A stretch of DNA of 64,000 nt from Amycolatopsis deserti (GTDB lineage Bacteria; Actinomycetota; Actinomycetes; Mycobacteriales; Pseudonocardiaceae): positions 434,001-498,000 of the forward strand of contig NZ_BNAU01000004.1 in NCBI RefSeq assembly GCF_014653945.1, in the 5' to 3' direction. The notes beneath the pieces are model-generated. The model ran no database searches. It saw nothing but the letters and a program-made list of their open reading frames with translations, and was not told the origin of the DNA. Position 1 is the stretch's first letter. The number at the start of each line of letters is the position of its first letter. Below are positions 25,397 to 32,683 of this stretch, piece by piece. Both the position numbers and the translations under genes were made by a program.

Positions 25397-26055
25397 CGAC
25401 GGCCCTTGATCAGTTCCAGCGCCTCCGCCCGGGAGGTCGCCGACGTCTGCAGCATGCCGCGCACCGCGGATGTGGTGGTGCGCGCGCCCGGCTTCCGGAT
25501 GCCGCGCATCGACATGCACAGGTGCTCGGCCTCGACCACCACGATCACGCCGCGCGGCTCGAGCTTGCGCACCAGCGCGTCGGCGATCTGCGAGGTCAGC
25601 CGCTCCTGCACCTGCGGGCGCTTGGCGTAGAGGTCGACCAGCCGGGCCAGCTTCGACAGGCCGGTGACCTTGCCGTGGCTGTTCGGGATGTAGCCGACGT
25701 GCGCGACGCCGTGGAAGGGCACCAGGTGGTGCTCGCACGTGCTGTACATCGGGATGTCGGTGACCAGCACCAGCTCTTCGTGCGACTCGTCGAAGGTGCG
25801 GGCCAGCACCTCCGCCGGGTCGGTGTACAGCCCGGCGAACATCTCCCGGTAGGCACGAGCGACCCGGGCCGGGGTGTCCCGAAGGCCCTCCCGGTCCGGG
25901 TTCTCGCCCACGGCCTCCAGCAGTTCACGCACCGCTTTCTCGGCGCGCGCCTGATCGAAGACCGGTCCCTCCCCGGGCGTCAGCTCACTGTCGATCTTGA
26001 CCGTCCTGCTCGTCGGAATTCCGCCGGTGCTGGCCCTGGCCCTCCTCGGAACCAC
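25393..26055 (-). CDS. folE: GTP cyclohydrolase I (start uncertain)
   Basis: The enzyme turns GTP into dihydroneopterin triphosphate, the first step of folate synthesis. The zinc and active-site residues are present: [28 protein letters not shown] and [10 protein letters not shown]. The homologous region begins at [14 protein letters not shown]. No ATG, GTG or TTG lies just before it. The nearest canonical start upstream is GTG 26055, inside ftsH, giving 220 aa. The next canonical start downstream (GTG 25932) would remove conserved sequence. In-frame ATC 25995 or CTG 25983 near the ftsH stop would give about 200 or 196 aa, close to mycobacterial FolE. Translation is probably coupled to ftsH. 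Confidence 0.93.
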
Positions 26056-28342
26056 CGAACCAGTCACCCTGCCGCGGCTGCTCGCCCTGGTTCGGGCGCC
26101 ACGGCGTCTGGCCACCCGGCTGGGTCGCCGGGGTCCAGCCCGGAGGCGCACCGTAGTTCGGCGGGCCGGACTGGCCGCCACCGCCGTAGGGCTGCGGCCA
26201 CTGGCCGGTGCCGTTCGGGCCGTACGGGCGGCCGCCACCGTTGGGCGGCGGGTAGTTGTTGCCGCCCCCACCGGGGGGCGCGTACGGGTTCGACGGCGGT
26301 TCCGGCTGGCTGTACGGCGGGCCACCGGGCAGGTCACCGCCGCCCGGCGCGGTCCCGACCGGGGTCGGCACCTGACGCGGCGCCGGCTTCTTCTCCGGCG
26401 GCGGCCACGGCTCGCCGCGCTCCATCGCCAGCTCGCCCGGGGTCTTGATCGGCGGCTTGTCCGACGGGGTGCGCTCACCGAACTCGTTGAAGACGGTGAT
26501 GTGCGGCCGCTTCTCGACGGTGGCGAAGATCCGCTCCAGGTCCTTGCGGCTGAGCGTCTCCTTCTCCAGCAGCTCCAGCACCAGGTCGTCGAGCACGTCG
26601 CGGTAGGTGTTGAGCACCTCCCACGCCTCGGTGTGCGCGGTCTCGATGAGCTTGCGGACCTCTTCGTCGATCTCGTGCGCGACCTCGAGCGAGTAGTCCG
26701 CCTGACGCCCCGCGGAGCGGCCCAGGAACGGGTCACCCTGGTCCTGGCCGTACTTCACGGCGCCGAGGCGGGCGCTCATGCCGTACTCCATGACCATCGC
26801 CTTGGCGATCTTGGTCGCCTGCTCGATGTCGGAGGACGCGCCGGTGGTCGGCTCGTGGAAGACCAGCTCCTCGGCGGTGCGGCCACCCATCGCGAACACC
26901 AGCCGGGCGATCATCTCGGAGCGGGTCATCAGCTGCTTGTCGTCCTCGGGGACGACCAGCGCGTGCCCACCGGTCCGGCCGCGCGGCAGGATGGTCAGCT
27001 TGTAGACCGGCTCGAGGTCCGGCATCGCCCACGCGGCGAGCGCGTGCCCGCCCTCGTGGTAGGCGGTGATCTTCTTCTCCTGCTCGGAGATGATCCGGCT
27101 CTTGCGCGCCGGCCCGCCGATGACCCGGTCGACCGACTCCTCCAGCGCCGCGTCGGTGATCACGTGCCCGTTCTGGCGGGCGGTGAGCAGCGCGGCCTCG
27201 TTGATGACGTTGGCCAGGTCGGCACCGGACATGCCCACGGTGCGCTTGGCCAGCGCGTTCAGGTCGACGCCCTGCGCCAGCGGCTTGCCCTTCGAGTGCA
27301 CCTCGAGGATGGCGCGGCGGCCGGCCAGGTCCGGCGCGGACACCGGGATCTGCCGGTCGAAGCGGCCCGGGCGCAGCAGCGCCGGGTCCAGGATGTCCGG
27401 GCGGTTGGTCGCGGCGATCAGGATGATGCCGCCGCGCGAGTCGAAGCCGTCCATCTCGACGAGCAGCTGGTTCAGCGTCTGCTCGCGCTCGTCGTGACCA
27501 CCGCCGAGGCCGGCGCCGCGCTGGCGGCCGACCGCGTCGATCTCGTCGACGAAGATGATGCAGGGGGCGTTCTGCTTGGCCTGCTCGAACAGGTCGCGCA
27601 CCCGGGAGGCGCCGACACCGACGAACATCTCGACGAAGTCCGAACCGGAGATCGTGTAGAACGGCACGCCGGCCTCACCGGCGACCGCGCGCGCGAGCAG
27701 CGTCTTACCGGTGCCGGGCGGGCCGTAGAGCAGCACGCCCTTCGGGATCTTCGCGCCCAGCGCCTGGTAGCGGGCCGGGTTCTGCAGGAAGTCCTTGATC
27801 TCGTAGAGCTCTTCGACCGCCTCGTCGGCACCCGCCACGTCGTTGAACGTCGTCTTCGGCATGTCCTTGTTCAGCTGCTTGGCCTTGGACTTGCCGAAGT
27901 TGAGGACGCGGTTGCCGCCGCCCTGGGCGTTGTTCATCATCCACATCAGCAGCAGGAGCAGCAGGCCGAGCGGGATGATGTAGTACAGGATCTGCGTGAA
28001 GAAGCCCTGTTGGGTCACCGTGGTGGTGAACTTGACGTTCGGCTTGTCGATCAGCAGGTCGTAGATCGGTCGCGCCCCGTCGGACGGGAACGATGTGATG
28101 ACCTGGTCGACCTGCTGGCCGTCGACGTCGATCTTGTTCGTGAGCGACAGCTTGAGCTGCTGCTCCTTGTCCTCCAGGTTGGCTTCCTTCACGTTGTTGC
28201 CCTTGATCTGGGCGATCGCCTGTGAAGTGGGGACCTGGGTGTAACCACGGTCGCTGTCGAAGAGGGTGTTGACCGCGAGGAAGATCAACACAACCGCGAC
28301 GATCCACAGCAGCGGGTTCCTGAGCAGGCGCTTCCGGTCCAT
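25985..28342 (-). CDS. ftsH: ATP-dependent zinc metalloprotease FtsH
   Basis: The 785-aa membrane AAA+ protease has two N-terminal helices (about residues 9-27 and 112-134) flanking an extracytoplasmic domain. The AAA domain has [32 protein letters not shown] and the second region of homology. The protease domain has [12 protein letters not shown] (HEXXH zinc site) and a downstream acidic ligand. The last ~170 residues are Pro/Gly/Asn/Gln-rich and disordered, longer than in enterobacteria but common in actinobacteria. It heads the folate operon here, and its stop lies within the folE 5' region. Confidence 0.97.
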
Positions 28343-28542: not shown

Positions 28543-29346
28543 TCAGTAGCCCGGCTCGGATGTGACGCTCGCCACCATCTCGCCGAGCCTGGTGCGCAGC
28601 GTCTTGGCGTCCGCCGAGGACACCGTCACCCATTCGCGCCCGTCGGCGCCCGGCCGGGACAGGCTCAGGTACCGGCCGGTGGCCGTGTCGAACCAGCCCA
28701 GCACCGGTGACCTGCGACGACCGTTCACCTCGGAGCGGCTGTTCGCGGCGAGCTGACCACCGCGCAGCCGGGGCTGGCCGGCGAGCCGGGCGTAGGCCTC
28801 GCGCGGGTCCGACGGCCCCTCGGACAGCGACCGGCGCCGCGGCTTGGGGTCGCCGCCGACCGGCACGGCCGCCCTGGCCGGCGGGATGCGCAGTGCCTCG
28901 TCGACCGGAAGTGTGATGGAAGCCTCGGTGCCGCGCGTGCCCGGCGGCAGCAGGTCGACGACCGTCGAGGCCAGGCCCTCGGGGAAGGCCGGCCGGATCC
29001 AGATGCCGTCGGCGTCCTGGATCGCCACCACGCCGAGGGTGCCGTCGGTGGCGGCGAGGATCGAAACCGGCGGCACCTGGAAGTCCGGGATGTGCACGGC
29101 GTCGATGCTGGTGGTCGGCTGGGACAGCACCCGGAACCAGTCCTCGACCCGCGGGTCGAGGCGGCCGTAGTGGTCGCGCAGCCCGCGGGCCTTCAGCTCG
29201 TCGTGGGCCCGCTGGCGCAGCTTGGCACGCTCGTCCATGGTCGCGCCGTGCGAGCGGACCTGCAGCGGGTAGGGCAGCTCGCCGATGCCGGCCGCCTCCC
29301 AGAGGAAGTCGAAGGTCATCGGGGTGAAGAACTCGGGGCGGTTCAC
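28543..29346 (-). CDS. EspG-like type VII secretion chaperone, second copy
   Basis: The 267-aa protein is a paralogue of the one encoded at 29453-30253. The two share FTPMTFDFLWEAAGIGELPYP/LTPLELDFLWE, the RSHGATMDERAKLR stretch, RLRGGQLAANSRS and a C-terminal WFDTATGRYLS plus GREWVTVSSADA. EspG proteins hold PE-PPE dimers in the cytosol before ESX secretion. GTG 29346 overlaps the stop of a 37-codon mini-ORF. It is last in the PE-like/PPE-like/EspG unit and is followed by 200 nt before ftsH. Confidence 0.75.
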   Translation of the reverse strand: MNRPEFFTPMTFDFLWEAAGIGELPYPLQVRSHGATMDERAKLRQRAHDELKARGLRDHYGRLDPRVEDWFRVLSQPTTSIDAVHIPDFQVPPVSILAATDGTLGVVAIQDADGIWIRPAFPEGLASTVVDLLPPGTRGTEASITLPVDEALRIPPARAAVPVGGDPKPRRRSLSEGPSDPREAYARLAGQPRLRGGQLAANSRSEVNGRRRSPVLGWFDTATGRYLSLSRPGADGREWVTVSSADAKTLRTRLGEMVASVTSEPGY

Positions 29347-29494
29347 CAGGCACCCCCCGGCGTCAGGGTCTCGCCGGCGGCCCGCGTCCGCGGAATTGCC
29401 ACCCCAGCGGGGGCGAGCCGACCGCGACCGCGACCAGCCTCCATCAGGTGGTTCACCAGGCACCCCCCGGCATGAGGGTCTCGCCGGCGGCCCG
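29340..29494. repeat. 45-bp direct repeat between the two EspG-like genes
   Basis: Copies at 29340-29384 and 29450-29494, offset by 110 bp, differ at two positions. Each contains the codons for AGETL-(M/T)-PGGAW and the stop/start overlap GTGA. The event duplicated the end of the upstream gene and created a short extra reading frame between the two. Confidence 0.85.
29343..29456 (-). CDS. 37-aa mini-ORF coupled to both EspG-like genes
   Basis: GTG 29456 overlaps the stop of the upstream EspG-like gene, and its own TGA (29343-29345) overlaps the GTG of the next EspG-like gene. The peptide begins MNHLMEAGRGRGRL and ends AAGETLTPGGAW, the same tail as the upstream protein (AAGETLMPGGAW). It has no membrane segment. 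The frame is open and coupled at both ends, so ribosomes probably read through it. It may be only a by-product of the 110-bp duplication. Confidence 0.45.
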   Translation of the reverse strand: MNHLMEAGRGRGRLAPAGVAIPRTRAAGETLTPGGAW

Positions 29495-30253
29495 GACCAG
29501 CATTTCGCCGAGGCGGTGCCGCAGCGTCGGTGCGTCGGCGGGGGCGATGGTGATCCAGTCGCGGCCGTCGTGGCCGCGGCTCGCCTGCGTGAAGTAGCGG
29601 CCGCCGTCGGTGTCGAACCAGCTCAGCACCGGTGGGCGGGTCTTCGCGCCGCTGCGGCTGCGGGCGTTGGCGCCGATCTGCCCGCCACGCAGCCGCGGCT
29701 GGGCCTGCAGCCGGGCCAGCGCCTTGCGGTCGTCGTCCGCGCCGGTGCGGTCGCCGCCCGCGGGGCGGCGCTGCAGGAAGTCGGCCCCGGTGGCCGTCAT
29801 CAGCTGCTCGAGCGGCACGGTGATCGACTTCTCGGTGCCCCGCGGCGCGGCGGGCAGCAGCGACACGATGGCGCTCGCGAGGCCGTCCGCCGGCATCGGC
29901 TGGAAGTGGAAGCCCCGCTCGTCGTGCACCGCGAGCACACCGCGCCCGGCCAGCGCCGCCGCCACGGCGAGCAGCGGCCGCGCGTCGGGCGCGGTGATGT
30001 GCACGCTGTCCAGGCTGGTCTCCGACCCCGACAGCACCTCGAAGAACTCCTCGACGTGCGGCGCGGGACGGCCCCGGCCGTCGACGGCGCCGCGCGCGGC
30101 CAGCCGGTCCAGGGTCTGCCGCCGCAGCTGGGCGCGCTCGTCCATCGTCGCGCCGTGCGAGCGCACCTCCAGCGGGTACGGCAGTTCCCCTGCTCCGAAG
30201 GACTCCCACAGGAAGTCCAGTTCCAGCGGAGTGAGCAGCTCCGCTCGCACCAT
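29453..30253 (-). CDS. EspG-like type VII secretion chaperone, first copy
   Basis: The 266-aa protein has the EspG-type N-terminus (LLTPLELDFLWESFGAGELPYPLEV, split by a short loop), a central domain with VLSGSETSLDSVHI and the C-terminal SRGHDGRDWITIAPADA. It is closely similar in plan to the second copy. It is likely a cytosolic chaperone for the PPE-like protein encoded 37 nt upstream. GAGGGA lies 6 bases before ATG 30253. The conserved WFDTDGGRYF plus DWITI pair supports the family call; I cannot confirm it by profile search. Confidence 0.75.
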   Translation of the reverse strand: MVRAELLTPLELDFLWESFGAGELPYPLEVRSHGATMDERAQLRRQTLDRLAARGAVDGRGRPAPHVEEFFEVLSGSETSLDSVHITAPDARPLLAVAAALAGRGVLAVHDERGFHFQPMPADGLASAIVSLLPAAPRGTEKSITVPLEQLMTATGADFLQRRPAGGDRTGADDDRKALARLQAQPRLRGGQIGANARSRSGAKTRPPVLSWFDTDGGRYFTQASRGHDGRDWITIAPADAPTLRHRLGEMLVRAAGETLMPGGAW

Positions 30254-30290
30254 CAAGTCCCTCTTTCCGGGTTCGCGCGGTTGCGCCGGA

Positions 30291-31604
30291 TCAGCGGTCG
30301 TCCTCGTCGTTCCAGGCCCCGATGACCGGCGGCGCGGTCGCCACGTTGGCGCCGAACGCCTCGTCCGGGTCGGCCTCGACGAGGAAGGAAGCCCGCGTGT
30401 GCTCCTCGTCCTCGGCGCCCTGCGCGCCGCCGGCACCCATGCCCGAGGCGGGCGGCGGGGTGCCCGCCCCGCCGATGGTGCCACCGGTGTTCATCAGGCT
30501 CTGCTGGGCCTGCTGCTGCGTGGCGCCGTGGGCCTGCTGCGACTGGTCCGAGCTGGCCGCCGTCTCGTCGGCGGCCGGGCGCTCCTTGGCGCCGGACTTG
30601 CTGCCCCGGCCGAGCGCGGCCTTGCCGCCCACCGCGGCCAGACCCGCGGCACCCAGACCGACCGCCGCGCCCAGCGCCGCCGAGCCGCCACCGCCGGACG
30701 ACGTCGGCGCCGCCACCTGGCCCGCGCCGGAGACCGAGCCGGGCGCCGGAGCCGGCGGCGCGGGAACACCGTGCGGCCCCGGGACACCACCGGGCTGGCC
30801 GCCGGTGGCGAAGCCGGCCGCGCCGCCACCCGGGATCCCGGCCGTGACACCGCCGACCGGGCCGATCCCGACCGAACCGAGACCACCGGGAACCGCACCC
30901 GAACCGGCGCCGACGGACTGCGCCGACGTGCTGCCGAAGCGGCCGTCCGCGGGCAGGCCGAGCGACTCCGGGCCGAAGCTCGGGGTCGCGCTGTCCACCT
31001 CGGACATCGCCTGGGTGTAGGCGTTGAAGTACTGGACCTGCTGCGCGTGCACGGCGCGGGCCTCGTCGGCCTGCACCTTCATGTCCGCGACCATCGCGGC
31101 CGGGCCGCCGGCGAGCATCGCCGCGGTCTGCTTGGCCGGGTCGAACTCCTTCGGCGCCGGCATCTTCTTGACCTCGGCGGCCGCGGCGGCCTGCTGCGCC
31201 ATGCGGCTGGACATGGTGTGCGCCGCGTCGCCGGCCTGCTTGCTGGAGTTCGCGATGCCGACCAGCGCGCCCTGCGCGGACCCGGCGCCCTGGCCGATCC
31301 ACGCGTTGCCCAGCTCGGTGATCGCGTTGTACAGGTCGTCGGCGGCCTGGTGCAGGCTGTCGCCGTGCGACTGCCACTGCCGTCCGGTGGCCTCGGCCGT
31401 GGCCGGGTCGTTGTTCTGGGTGGCGCCGAGGTAGAGCTGGTTGCTCTCCTGCGAGGCCCAGTTCGGCGGGCTGCCGATGGCCCGGTCGCCGCCGTAGGTG
31501 AACCCGCCCGCGCTGTTGCGCGCCTGCTGCACCAGCGCGGCGGACTCGCCGTTGTCGCCCAGCTGGACGGCGTCGACTCTGGGCTCGCTGCTCGGAGAAG
31601 TCAT
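30291..31604 (-). CDS. PPE-like type VII secretion substrate with a Gly/Ala/Pro-rich tail
   Basis: The 437-aa protein has an N-terminal helical domain (about residues 20-215) with SPPNWASQESNQLY and a WxG turn (NAWIGQGAG), as in PPE/WXG proteins. A long Gly/Ala/Pro-rich low-complexity region follows (about 220-400), then a short acidic C-terminus (DPDEAFGANVATAPPVIGAW). By analogy with PE-PPE pairs it should dimerise with the 122-aa protein encoded 19 nt upstream and be recognised by the EspG-like chaperones. The clear ribosome site GGGGGGA precedes ATG 31604. Confidence 0.75.
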   Translation of the reverse strand: MTSPSSEPRVDAVQLGDNGESAALVQQARNSAGGFTYGGDRAIGSPPNWASQESNQLYLGATQNNDPATAEATGRQWQSHGDSLHQAADDLYNAITELGNAWIGQGAGSAQGALVGIANSSKQAGDAAHTMSSRMAQQAAAAAEVKKMPAPKEFDPAKQTAAMLAGGPAAMVADMKVQADEARAVHAQQVQYFNAYTQAMSEVDSATPSFGPESLGLPADGRFGSTSAQSVGAGSGAVPGGLGSVGIGPVGGVTAGIPGGGAAGFATGGQPGGVPGPHGVPAPPAPAPGSVSGAGQVAAPTSSGGGGSAALGAAVGLGAAGLAAVGGKAALGRGSKSGAKERPAADETAASSDQSQQAHGATQQQAQQSLMNTGGTIGGAGTPPPASGMGAGGAQGAEDEEHTRASFLVEADPDEAFGANVATAPPVIGAWNDEDDR

Positions 31605-31623
31605 CGTGATCGTCCCCCCGGGT

Positions 31624-31992
31624 TCAGACCTGACGCCCGGACGCCAGCGCGTCCTCGGCGGCCTGCTCGATCTTGTCGTAGTGGCTCATCGCCGCGACGA
31701 TGGCGTCCTCGGCCTGCTGGTACTGGTTGTAGAGGTTGCGCAGCGCGGTCGCGTACGACTCGCCGCCCCCGTCGGCGCGCTGCACGAACTTCGCGGCGAT
31801 GGCGTTGCCCACCGGGTTGTTGCCGAGCTTCGGCGGTTCGGCCAGGGCTCCGGCGTTGCGCAGCAGGTTCTCCACCTGGTCCTTGCCGAGGCGGATCTTC
31901 TTCAGAACCGTCTGCGCGGCGTCCGGGTCGACCCCCAGCTGACCGTTCACGGCGGCGTTCCGGAACGCCGCGGCGTCCGCGTAGCTCCCCAT
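31624..31992 (-). CDS. PE-like small helical type VII secretion partner
   Basis: The 122-aa protein is all helical with no signal peptide or membrane helix. The C-terminal half has YATALRNLYNQYQQAEDAI and then SHYDKIEQAAEDAL, containing the YxxxE form of the YxxxD/E type VII export signal near the end of a helix. The size and place before the PPE-like gene match PE proteins, though a PE dipeptide is not at the N-terminus. GGGAGAACTG precedes ATG 31992. It starts the four-gene type VII unit. Confidence 0.65.
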   Translation of the reverse strand: MGSYADAAAFRNAAVNGQLGVDPDAAQTVLKKIRLGKDQVENLLRNAGALAEPPKLGNNPVGNAIAAKFVQRADGGGESYATALRNLYNQYQQAEDAIVAAMSHYDKIEQAAEDALASGRQV

Positions 31993-32128: not shown

Positions 32129-32683
32129 TCAGGCCCCGTACACCTTCGGATCAAGCGTGCCGATGTAGGGCAGGTCGCGGTAGCGCTCCGCGTAGTCCAG
32201 GCCGTACCCGACGACGAACTCGTTCGGGATGTCGAACCCGACGTAGCGCACCGGCACGTCCACCTTCACCGCCTCCGGCTTGCGCAGCAGCGTGACGACC
32301 TCCAGCGACGCCGGGTTGCGGCTCGCCAGGTTCTTCAGCAGCCAGGACAGGGTGAGTCCGGAATCGACGATGTCCTCGACGATCAGCACGTGCCGCCCGG
32401 TGATGTCCCGGTCGAGGTCCTTGAGGATCCGCACCACGCCGGAGGACGACGTGGACGAACCGTACGAGGAGACGGCCATGAACTCCAGCTGCGCCGGCAT
32501 CGGCAGCGCCCGGGCGAAGTCGGTCATGAACATGACGGCGCCCTTGAGCACCCCCACCAGCAGCAGGTCGCCGGCAGTCGTTTCGCGCTCGTAGTCCGCG
32601 GCGATCTGCTTGGCGAGCTCGGTGATCTTGTCGTTGATCTGCTGCTCGGTGATGAGGACGGAGGCGATCTCGCCTTCGTACAC
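32129..32683 (-). CDS. hpt: Hypoxanthine phosphoribosyltransferase
   Basis: The 184-aa enzyme salvages hypoxanthine and guanine with PRPP. The PRPP-binding motif is [18 protein letters not shown], the active-site loop is [12 protein letters not shown], and [22 protein letters not shown] recognises the purine. GTG 32683 follows AGAGGGGA. It lies 3 nt after tilS, the conserved tilS-hpt pair. Confidence 0.97.

Follow-up and report, generated by a model that had tools for sequence, protein, structure and literature searches.

In Mycobacterium tuberculosis, the interval between hpt (Rv3624c) and ftsH (Rv3610c) presumably holds PE32/PPE65, esxVW and espACD, and what we take to be the same junction carries, in the soil actinomycete Amycolatopsis deserti, the four-gene PE/PPE/EspG-type cassette analyzed here. 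The cassette lies in a stretch of 64,000 nucleotides (contig NZ_BNAU01000004.1, positions 434,001 to 498,000 of the forward strand), referred to below as the window. PE32 and PPE65 are described as co-operonic in the available part of an M. tuberculosis study (PMC4868851). The cassette shares with PE25-PPE41-EspG5, PE8-PPE15-EspG5 and PE5-PPE4-EspG3 (4kxr, 5xfs and 6uuj) the EspG family, a predicted PPE fold and a YxxxE-type motif on the partner protein. Unlike these systems, however, it has two EspG proteins per pair and an extra conserved C-terminal tail, its putative PE and PPE proteins do not match the PE or PPE profiles, and it does not lie beside eccB, a core gene of ESX (type VII) secretion. 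EspB, also known with EspK (8ako), is a single chain, whereas the cassette uses two genes and has EspG in place of EspK. Finally, the ESX-4EVOL clusters of Nocardia, Tsukamurella, Segniliparus and some mycobacteria resemble it in carrying espG, pe and ppe outside the ESX-1, -2, -3 and -5 loci; the species named in the accessible text are mycolic acid producers, and there the genes sit within the ESX cluster, whereas those of the cassette are orphans (PMC4791881).

We conclude that the cassette is real and conserved, an orphan set of PE/PPE-type substrate and twin EspGs, and a variant of the known PE/PPE/EspG theme. It probably makes a PE/PPE-type substrate pair together with two dedicated EspG chaperones, the pair being exported by an ESX-4-like machine encoded elsewhere. 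The four genes are consecutive and all on the minus strand, and the gaps from hpt through them to ftsH measure 136, 19, 37, 106 and 200 bp. The features are as follows (positions in the window):

32129..32683, minus strand: hpt, the upstream flank (open reading frame, ORF; matched at E <= 1e-40 in 119 of 120 family genomes, that of A. deserti included).
31624..31992, minus strand: PE-like (Esx/PE-type helical) partner, 122 amino acids (aa), with a YxxxE tail, mostly helical in the AlphaFold2 (AF2) model.
31666..31680, minus strand: YDKIE, the YxxxE-type motif of the partner (residues 105-109), Y105 being invariant in relatives.
30291..31604, minus strand: PPE-like protein, 437 aa (alignment, AF2, weak WXG100 matches in aligned rows).
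30954..31466, minus strand: predicted PPE-fold domain, residues 47-217 of the 437-aa protein.
30315..30422, minus strand: C-terminal signature GAEDEEHTRASFLVEADPDEAFGANVATAPPVIGAW of the PPE-like protein (profile A5, E 5e-19).
29453..30253, minus strand: EspGa, EspG-family chaperone, 266 aa (PF14011, E 1.7e-67; in the tree group of 21 "a" rows).
28543..29346, minus strand: EspGb, second EspG-family chaperone, 267 aa, GTG start (PF14011, E 5.4e-67; in the tree clade of 20 "b" rows).
29337..29384, no strand: copy 1 of a 48-bp direct repeat where EspGa and EspGb meet (94% identity between the copies, spacing 110).
29447..29494, no strand: copy 2 of this repeat.
25985..28342, minus strand: ftsH, the downstream flank (ORF; tblastn in relatives).

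A sequence-only reading of this DNA had described four same-strand genes, namely a 122-aa helical protein with a YxxxE tail, a PPE-like protein and two EspG-like paralogues, with no ESX core gene beside them. The ORFs and the conserved gene order bear out this layout, the tail is present, both paralogues match PF14011, and no ESX core gene was found beside the cassette, the genome having been searched for eccB only.

A search with the partner protein gave eighty named loci, which thus show where the cassette lies rather than how frequent it is. Sixty-eight of these reach ftsH and 12 stop at a contig edge. In all 68, with ORFs in relatives called by a codon-composition heuristic, the order hpt-PE-PPE-EspGa-EspGb-ftsH was kept on one strand, a single locus having an extra partial EspGa match. 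The ratio of nonsynonymous to synonymous substitutions (dN/dS) was below 1 for all four cassette genes (0.03 to 0.65 in five comparisons), which, together with the recurrent order, indicates that the cassette is more than a chance arrangement. It was found in Amycolatopsis, Prauserella, Saccharomonospora, Haloechinothrix, Actinophytocola, Thermocrispum and Qaidamihabitans, with one further locus in a metagenome-assembled genome named only Actinomycetes bacterium; the nearest named loci are those of Amycolatopsis tucumanensis and A. thermalba, whose 122-aa proteins are 99% identical to that of the window.

Judged by profile, EspGa and EspGb are full members of the EspG family, since they scored 228.1 and 226.4 bits against PF14011 (cut-off 27) and covered its positions 1-245 of 245. 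The two share 49% identity. In a tree of 73 EspG sequences, the 48 from the hpt-ftsH junction formed one clade (100/99) apart from 15 other EspGs of Pseudonocardiaceae, and the ten sampled EspGs of family f8, which we take to be Mycobacteriaceae from its PE/PPE genes, formed a clade of their own (100/100). EspGa rows grouped together (21 rows, 90/28; 20 of them, 100/98), as did the 20 EspGb rows (100/98), the b label needing two changes owing to the single-EspG locus L052. This tree is unrooted; it was built without the EspG of L106 from the same genome, which fell below the cut applied, and with L105 re-cut by hand. A recent tandem duplication as the source of the twin EspGs was rejected, because a and b cluster across genera. 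The tree thus points to two old lineages that split early within the hpt-ftsH locus and were both kept. The 48-bp repeat at their junction is a local event, separate from the origin of the twins. In the relative L042 (3346-3963) we saw three 278-nt direct-repeat copies, which overlap and correspond to the 3' end of EspGa.

Several loci carry variants of the cassette at this junction. In L073, L074 and L100, EspG genes stand first and last and enclose a PE-like gene, a gene for a DUF3558 lipoprotein and a PPE-like gene, and L062 combines the a-b arrangement with such a lipoprotein; all four lipoproteins pass the PF12079 cut-off. With the early a/b split, the EspG-at-each-end variants show two EspGs to be an old state of the locus, and the description of the cassette as "minimal ancestral" in the sequence-only reading did not hold up against them. 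The lipoprotein gene lies between the PE-like and PPE-like genes in L062, L074 and L100, as it does in L103 (G000:C6:266000-279000), an EspG locus outside the junction, and precedes the PE-like gene in L073; the window cassette lacks it.

Both EspGs appear to be maintained, with dN/dS of 0.22-0.41 for EspGa and 0.12-0.37 for EspGb (five comparisons). Comparing 91 sequences of each group, we found 54 positions at least 93% conserved in both and only 2 fixed differences, which are uninformative without structure. After correction for housekeeping divergence, PPE-domain distances across the 68 loci correlated equally with those of EspGa (0.647) and EspGb (0.642), with no difference that would pair the PPE domain with one of them (bootstrap -0.058 to 0.074). 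Together with the low dN/dS, this equal tracking fits, but does not prove, service of both EspGs to the local pair. Among 102 EspG matches in nine genomes, close EspG pairs occurred five times at the hpt-ftsH junction and six times elsewhere, and some of the latter look like pieces of one broken gene or hold a copy with an internal stop.

The 437-aa protein consists of a helical N-terminal domain, a long Gly/Ala/Pro-rich linker and a conserved C-terminal tail, as seen in the alignment and the AF2 model. Its residues 47-217 are predicted to adopt the PPE helical fold; in both fold searches PPE chains ranked above EspB, which in one of them came next. Of 73 named relatives, 71 have a WxG-type turn, W[IV]G. 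Where other EspG loci encode a tail-bearing PPE-like protein, its score falls on either side of the PPE cut-off of 26 bits, with L106 of the same genome (32.1), L245 (51.9) and L246 (36.3) above it and L103 (22.8), L240 (20.7) and L243 (24.2) below.

The assignment of the pair is qualified by several profile searches. Neither the 122-aa nor the 437-aa protein matched a PE or PPE profile, the latter hitting no Pfam family up to E 1, PPE (PF00823) included. PPE was also absent from the six Pfam families matched by 32 aligned PPE-like rows, most of which (29) matched WXG100, weakly (best 5.9e-5), and L052, a variant at the hpt-ftsH site, scored 19.9 bits for PPE. By hhalign, no sequence-level homology emerged with eight proteins, four PE and four PPE, of three sampled f8 loci, but these target profiles are tiny. 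Searched against PDB sequences, A4 found no match and A3 only weak unrelated ones. The 122-aa partner matched no PE or WXG profile, PE (PF00934) being found in 2 of 32 aligned partner rows at E up to 0.1 (best 0.046), and its AF2 model, with two long helices (23-47 and 80-119), is of low confidence (mean pLDDT 54.8). Nevertheless, a Yxxx[DE] motif lies near the partner C terminus in 80/80 named loci, and Y105 is invariant in alignments of 22 and of 32 relatives. The label "PPE-like" thus rests on the predicted fold and on relatives and "PE-like" on weaker signs, so that the 122-aa protein may be a PE-type partner. Of the assignments in the sequence-only reading, EspG held by profile for both paralogues, and PPE held by predicted fold and not by profile.

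With eccB as the only ESX core gene searched genome-wide, two loci were found in A. deserti, on contigs C3 and C2, the window being on C4. Both encode EccB, EccD, an FtsK/SpoIIIE-type EccC and WXG100 proteins, one also a subtilase, and both machines are presumably ESX-4-like. EspG matches number eight in this genome, at seven places. In nine Pseudonocardiaceae genomes, the 20 kb on either side of each of 18 eccB loci held no EspG (two of these loci are on contigs without an EspG match, one of the two near a contig end), and in these genomes EspG does not follow the customary ESX-cluster location of mycobacterial ESX-1, -2, -3 and -5. The available part of a report on one Amycolatopsis lists eccB, eccC, eccD and mycP, with EspG not among them (PMC11004387). 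Since the eccB loci lie elsewhere and none is near an EspG gene, the cassette probably acts in trans with an ESX system encoded elsewhere, as the sequence-only reading had proposed.

The tail of the PPE-like protein has the consensus xxEEDxEHxRxxYLVExDPDxxFGxxxxTAPPVIG. As a strict regular expression gave 2 cases only, we replaced it by a profile trained on 15 tails from EspG loci, the window tail being one training row. All four matches in the A. deserti genome (E <= 0.001) fell within 2.3 kb of an EspG match. In the nine family genomes, 55 of 61 tail matches were within 4 kb of one, where 0.93 would be expected at random; by our own bookkeeping 10 of the 61 are training tails, which leaves an independent figure of 45/51. 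Conversely, 63 of the 102 EspG matches had a tail within 4 kb, so not every EspG has a tail partner. Across 200 genomes of the order, 34 had a match: 28 of 29 of Pseudonocardiaceae, three of f8, two of f2 and one of f15. The conserved tail is probably a second recognition element. A single literature search aimed at the motif found no description of the tail, its papers being, by title and the start of the abstract, viral-peptide or unrelated work.

Some individual loci deserve mention. The only Pseudonocardiaceae genome of the draw without a tail, G004, also gave no EspG match among 12 of its 50 candidates and no PPE match, and possibly lacks all three; G050, of the same genus, has 3 PPE matches. 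A weak tail match (G009:C15:6277-6369, E 7.6e-4) lies about 2 kb from an eccB gene and is one of the six not within 4 kb of an EspG. L104 (G000:C2:606000-620000) encodes EspG, a PE-like protein, a tail-bearing PPE-like protein and an EspC-type protein (PF10824), followed by a very long ORF; by eye this looks similar to YD/Rhs repeats and may be a polymorphic-toxin-like substrate beside an EspG cassette. At L101 (G000:C6:424500-436000), the EspG neighbor appears by eye to end in an enzyme-like domain, and no tail was found there. A promoter and terminator scan of the window gave no promoter-like site and three overlapping plus-strand terminator-like sites, which are uninformative, and a search for DUF2563 had no match anywhere.

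Sixty Pseudonocardiaceae intervals, anchored on hpt and drawn from the 118 other family genomes with an hpt match, held the full cassette in 19 cases and a variant or decayed form in 5; 22 were empty (<= 500 bp), 10 carried an unrelated antisense gene, and the contents of the other 4 fitted none of these classes. The antisense gene of L051, L060, L061, L063, L065, L066, L072, L075, L077 and L099 encodes a protein of about 570 aa that by eye resembles an exported substrate-binding-like protein. L058 is a decayed cassette with shortened partner and PPE-like genes, EspGa open and no EspGb gene. In a tree of ftsH and hpt, the cassette fell inside one 30-row group (Shimodaira-Hasegawa-like approximate likelihood ratio test 98) in which 5 rows lack it, its presence requiring at least 3 changes; the root of this tree is weak, the outgroup not being one side of a branch. 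This distribution fits one gain and a few losses, and we conclude that within Pseudonocardiaceae a single clade carries the cassette.

In 12 other families of the order, from which 15 loci were sampled, hpt and ftsH were never more than 484 bp apart (range 80-484 bp). The contents of 25 sampled f8 loci, of which 23 reach ftsH and two end at a contig end, varied, and PE/PPE genes were sporadic (3/25 loci), the four PE and four PPE ORFs having been assigned to loci by reading the sequences, with 25 of 65 Pfam families listed. None of 115 predicted ORFs in the f8 intervals matched EspG profiles that do find known EspGs. With near-empty intervals elsewhere and no f8 EspG there, the two families appear to have filled the junction independently. 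The sequence-only reading had seen here an ancient type VII home inherited in common with M. tuberculosis, for which the shared interval and its sporadic f8 PE/PPE genes speak. The near-empty junctions, the missing f8 interval EspGs, the separate clade of sampled f8 EspGs and the restriction of the cassette to one clade, however, make shared ancestry extremely unlikely; on present evidence the M. tuberculosis set is a separate insertion.

In the mechanism that we favor, the 122-aa and 437-aa proteins would pair as a helical bundle and an EspG would cap the exposed tip of the PPE-like domain. The complex would then be passed to either of the two ESX-4-like machines that the genome encodes at other places, where EccC would read the YxxxE motif of the partner. 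Most likely, both EspGs would serve the same pair, each at its own step or for its own partner of the pair. Alternatively, one EspG might serve the local pair and the other a PPE-like substrate encoded elsewhere, its position here being due to history. The genome does contain three further tail-bearing PPE-like genes (E <= 1e-3) and six other EspG matches, and close EspG pairs are few, but each of the three genes has an EspG match within 2.3 kb, and EspGa and EspGb occur together in all 68 ftsH-reaching loci and track the PPE domain equally. We consider this division of labor unlikely.

Loss of chaperone activity by one EspG, with a new role in regulating the cassette or the neighboring ftsH, has no direct support beyond the fact that the cassette forms one strand run with ftsH; the many positions conserved in both groups, their mere two fixed differences and near-equal PF14011 scores make it quite improbable. 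That the pair is instead a WXG100/EspB-like cytosolic or cell-surface protein without ESX export would agree with the WXG100 matches and with EspB following PPE in the fold searches, yet PPE chains precede EspB in both, the genes adjoin EspG, and the partner carries the YxxxE motif, so that we regard it as highly improbable.

Pseudonocardiaceae have many EspG and PPE genes, dispersed over their genomes. PF00823 was above cut-off in 58 of 60 genomes of the family (1-16 matches each). In the order-wide draw, in which up to 12 EspG candidates were scored per genome so that counts of 12 are lower bounds (nine genomes were scored fully), EspG was found in 28/29 Pseudonocardiaceae genomes (7 to at least 12 matches each), in 26/29 f8 genomes (1 to at least 12) and in 15 genomes of other families, mostly weakly (best 1.2e-26). 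This prevalence is at odds with the statement, in the accessible text of a 2025 review, that PE/PPE are unique to mycobacteria (PMC12209268), and with the model, as given in the available part of PMC4791881, that a plasmid-borne ESX cluster of mycolic-acid bacteria gained espG, pe and ppe once Corynebacterium and Rhodococcus had split off. The same source reports Pseudonocardiales, which lack mycolic acids, with ESX-4. Literature searches gave nothing on the PPE family in Pseudonocardiales; what they gave on DUF3558, and on EspG together with Amycolatopsis, was unrelated by title, and for EspG/PPE with Saccharopolyspora PMC4791881 alone was found.

More tentatively, PPE-EspG export in Pseudonocardiaceae might be a dispersed chromosomal network that uses espG-free ESX-4-like machines. 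Each substrate would come with a chaperone of its own, many would carry "EHxRxxYLVExDPDxxFG...APPVIG" as a C-terminal recognition tail, and the ftsH-hpt cassette would be a specialized branch in which two EspG lineages divide the work between them. We regard this wider picture as possible rather than likely. The tail would offer a handle on substrate routing, and two fixed chaperones per pair a natural system for EspG roles beyond capping. With EspG and PPE in Pseudonocardiaceae, the origin of EspG-PPE secretion becomes directly testable in harmless soil bacteria that lack mycolic acids, and, if such a dispersed network exists, PPE-EspG secretion would predate, and extend beyond, the mycobacterial plasmid-borne origin given in the literature.

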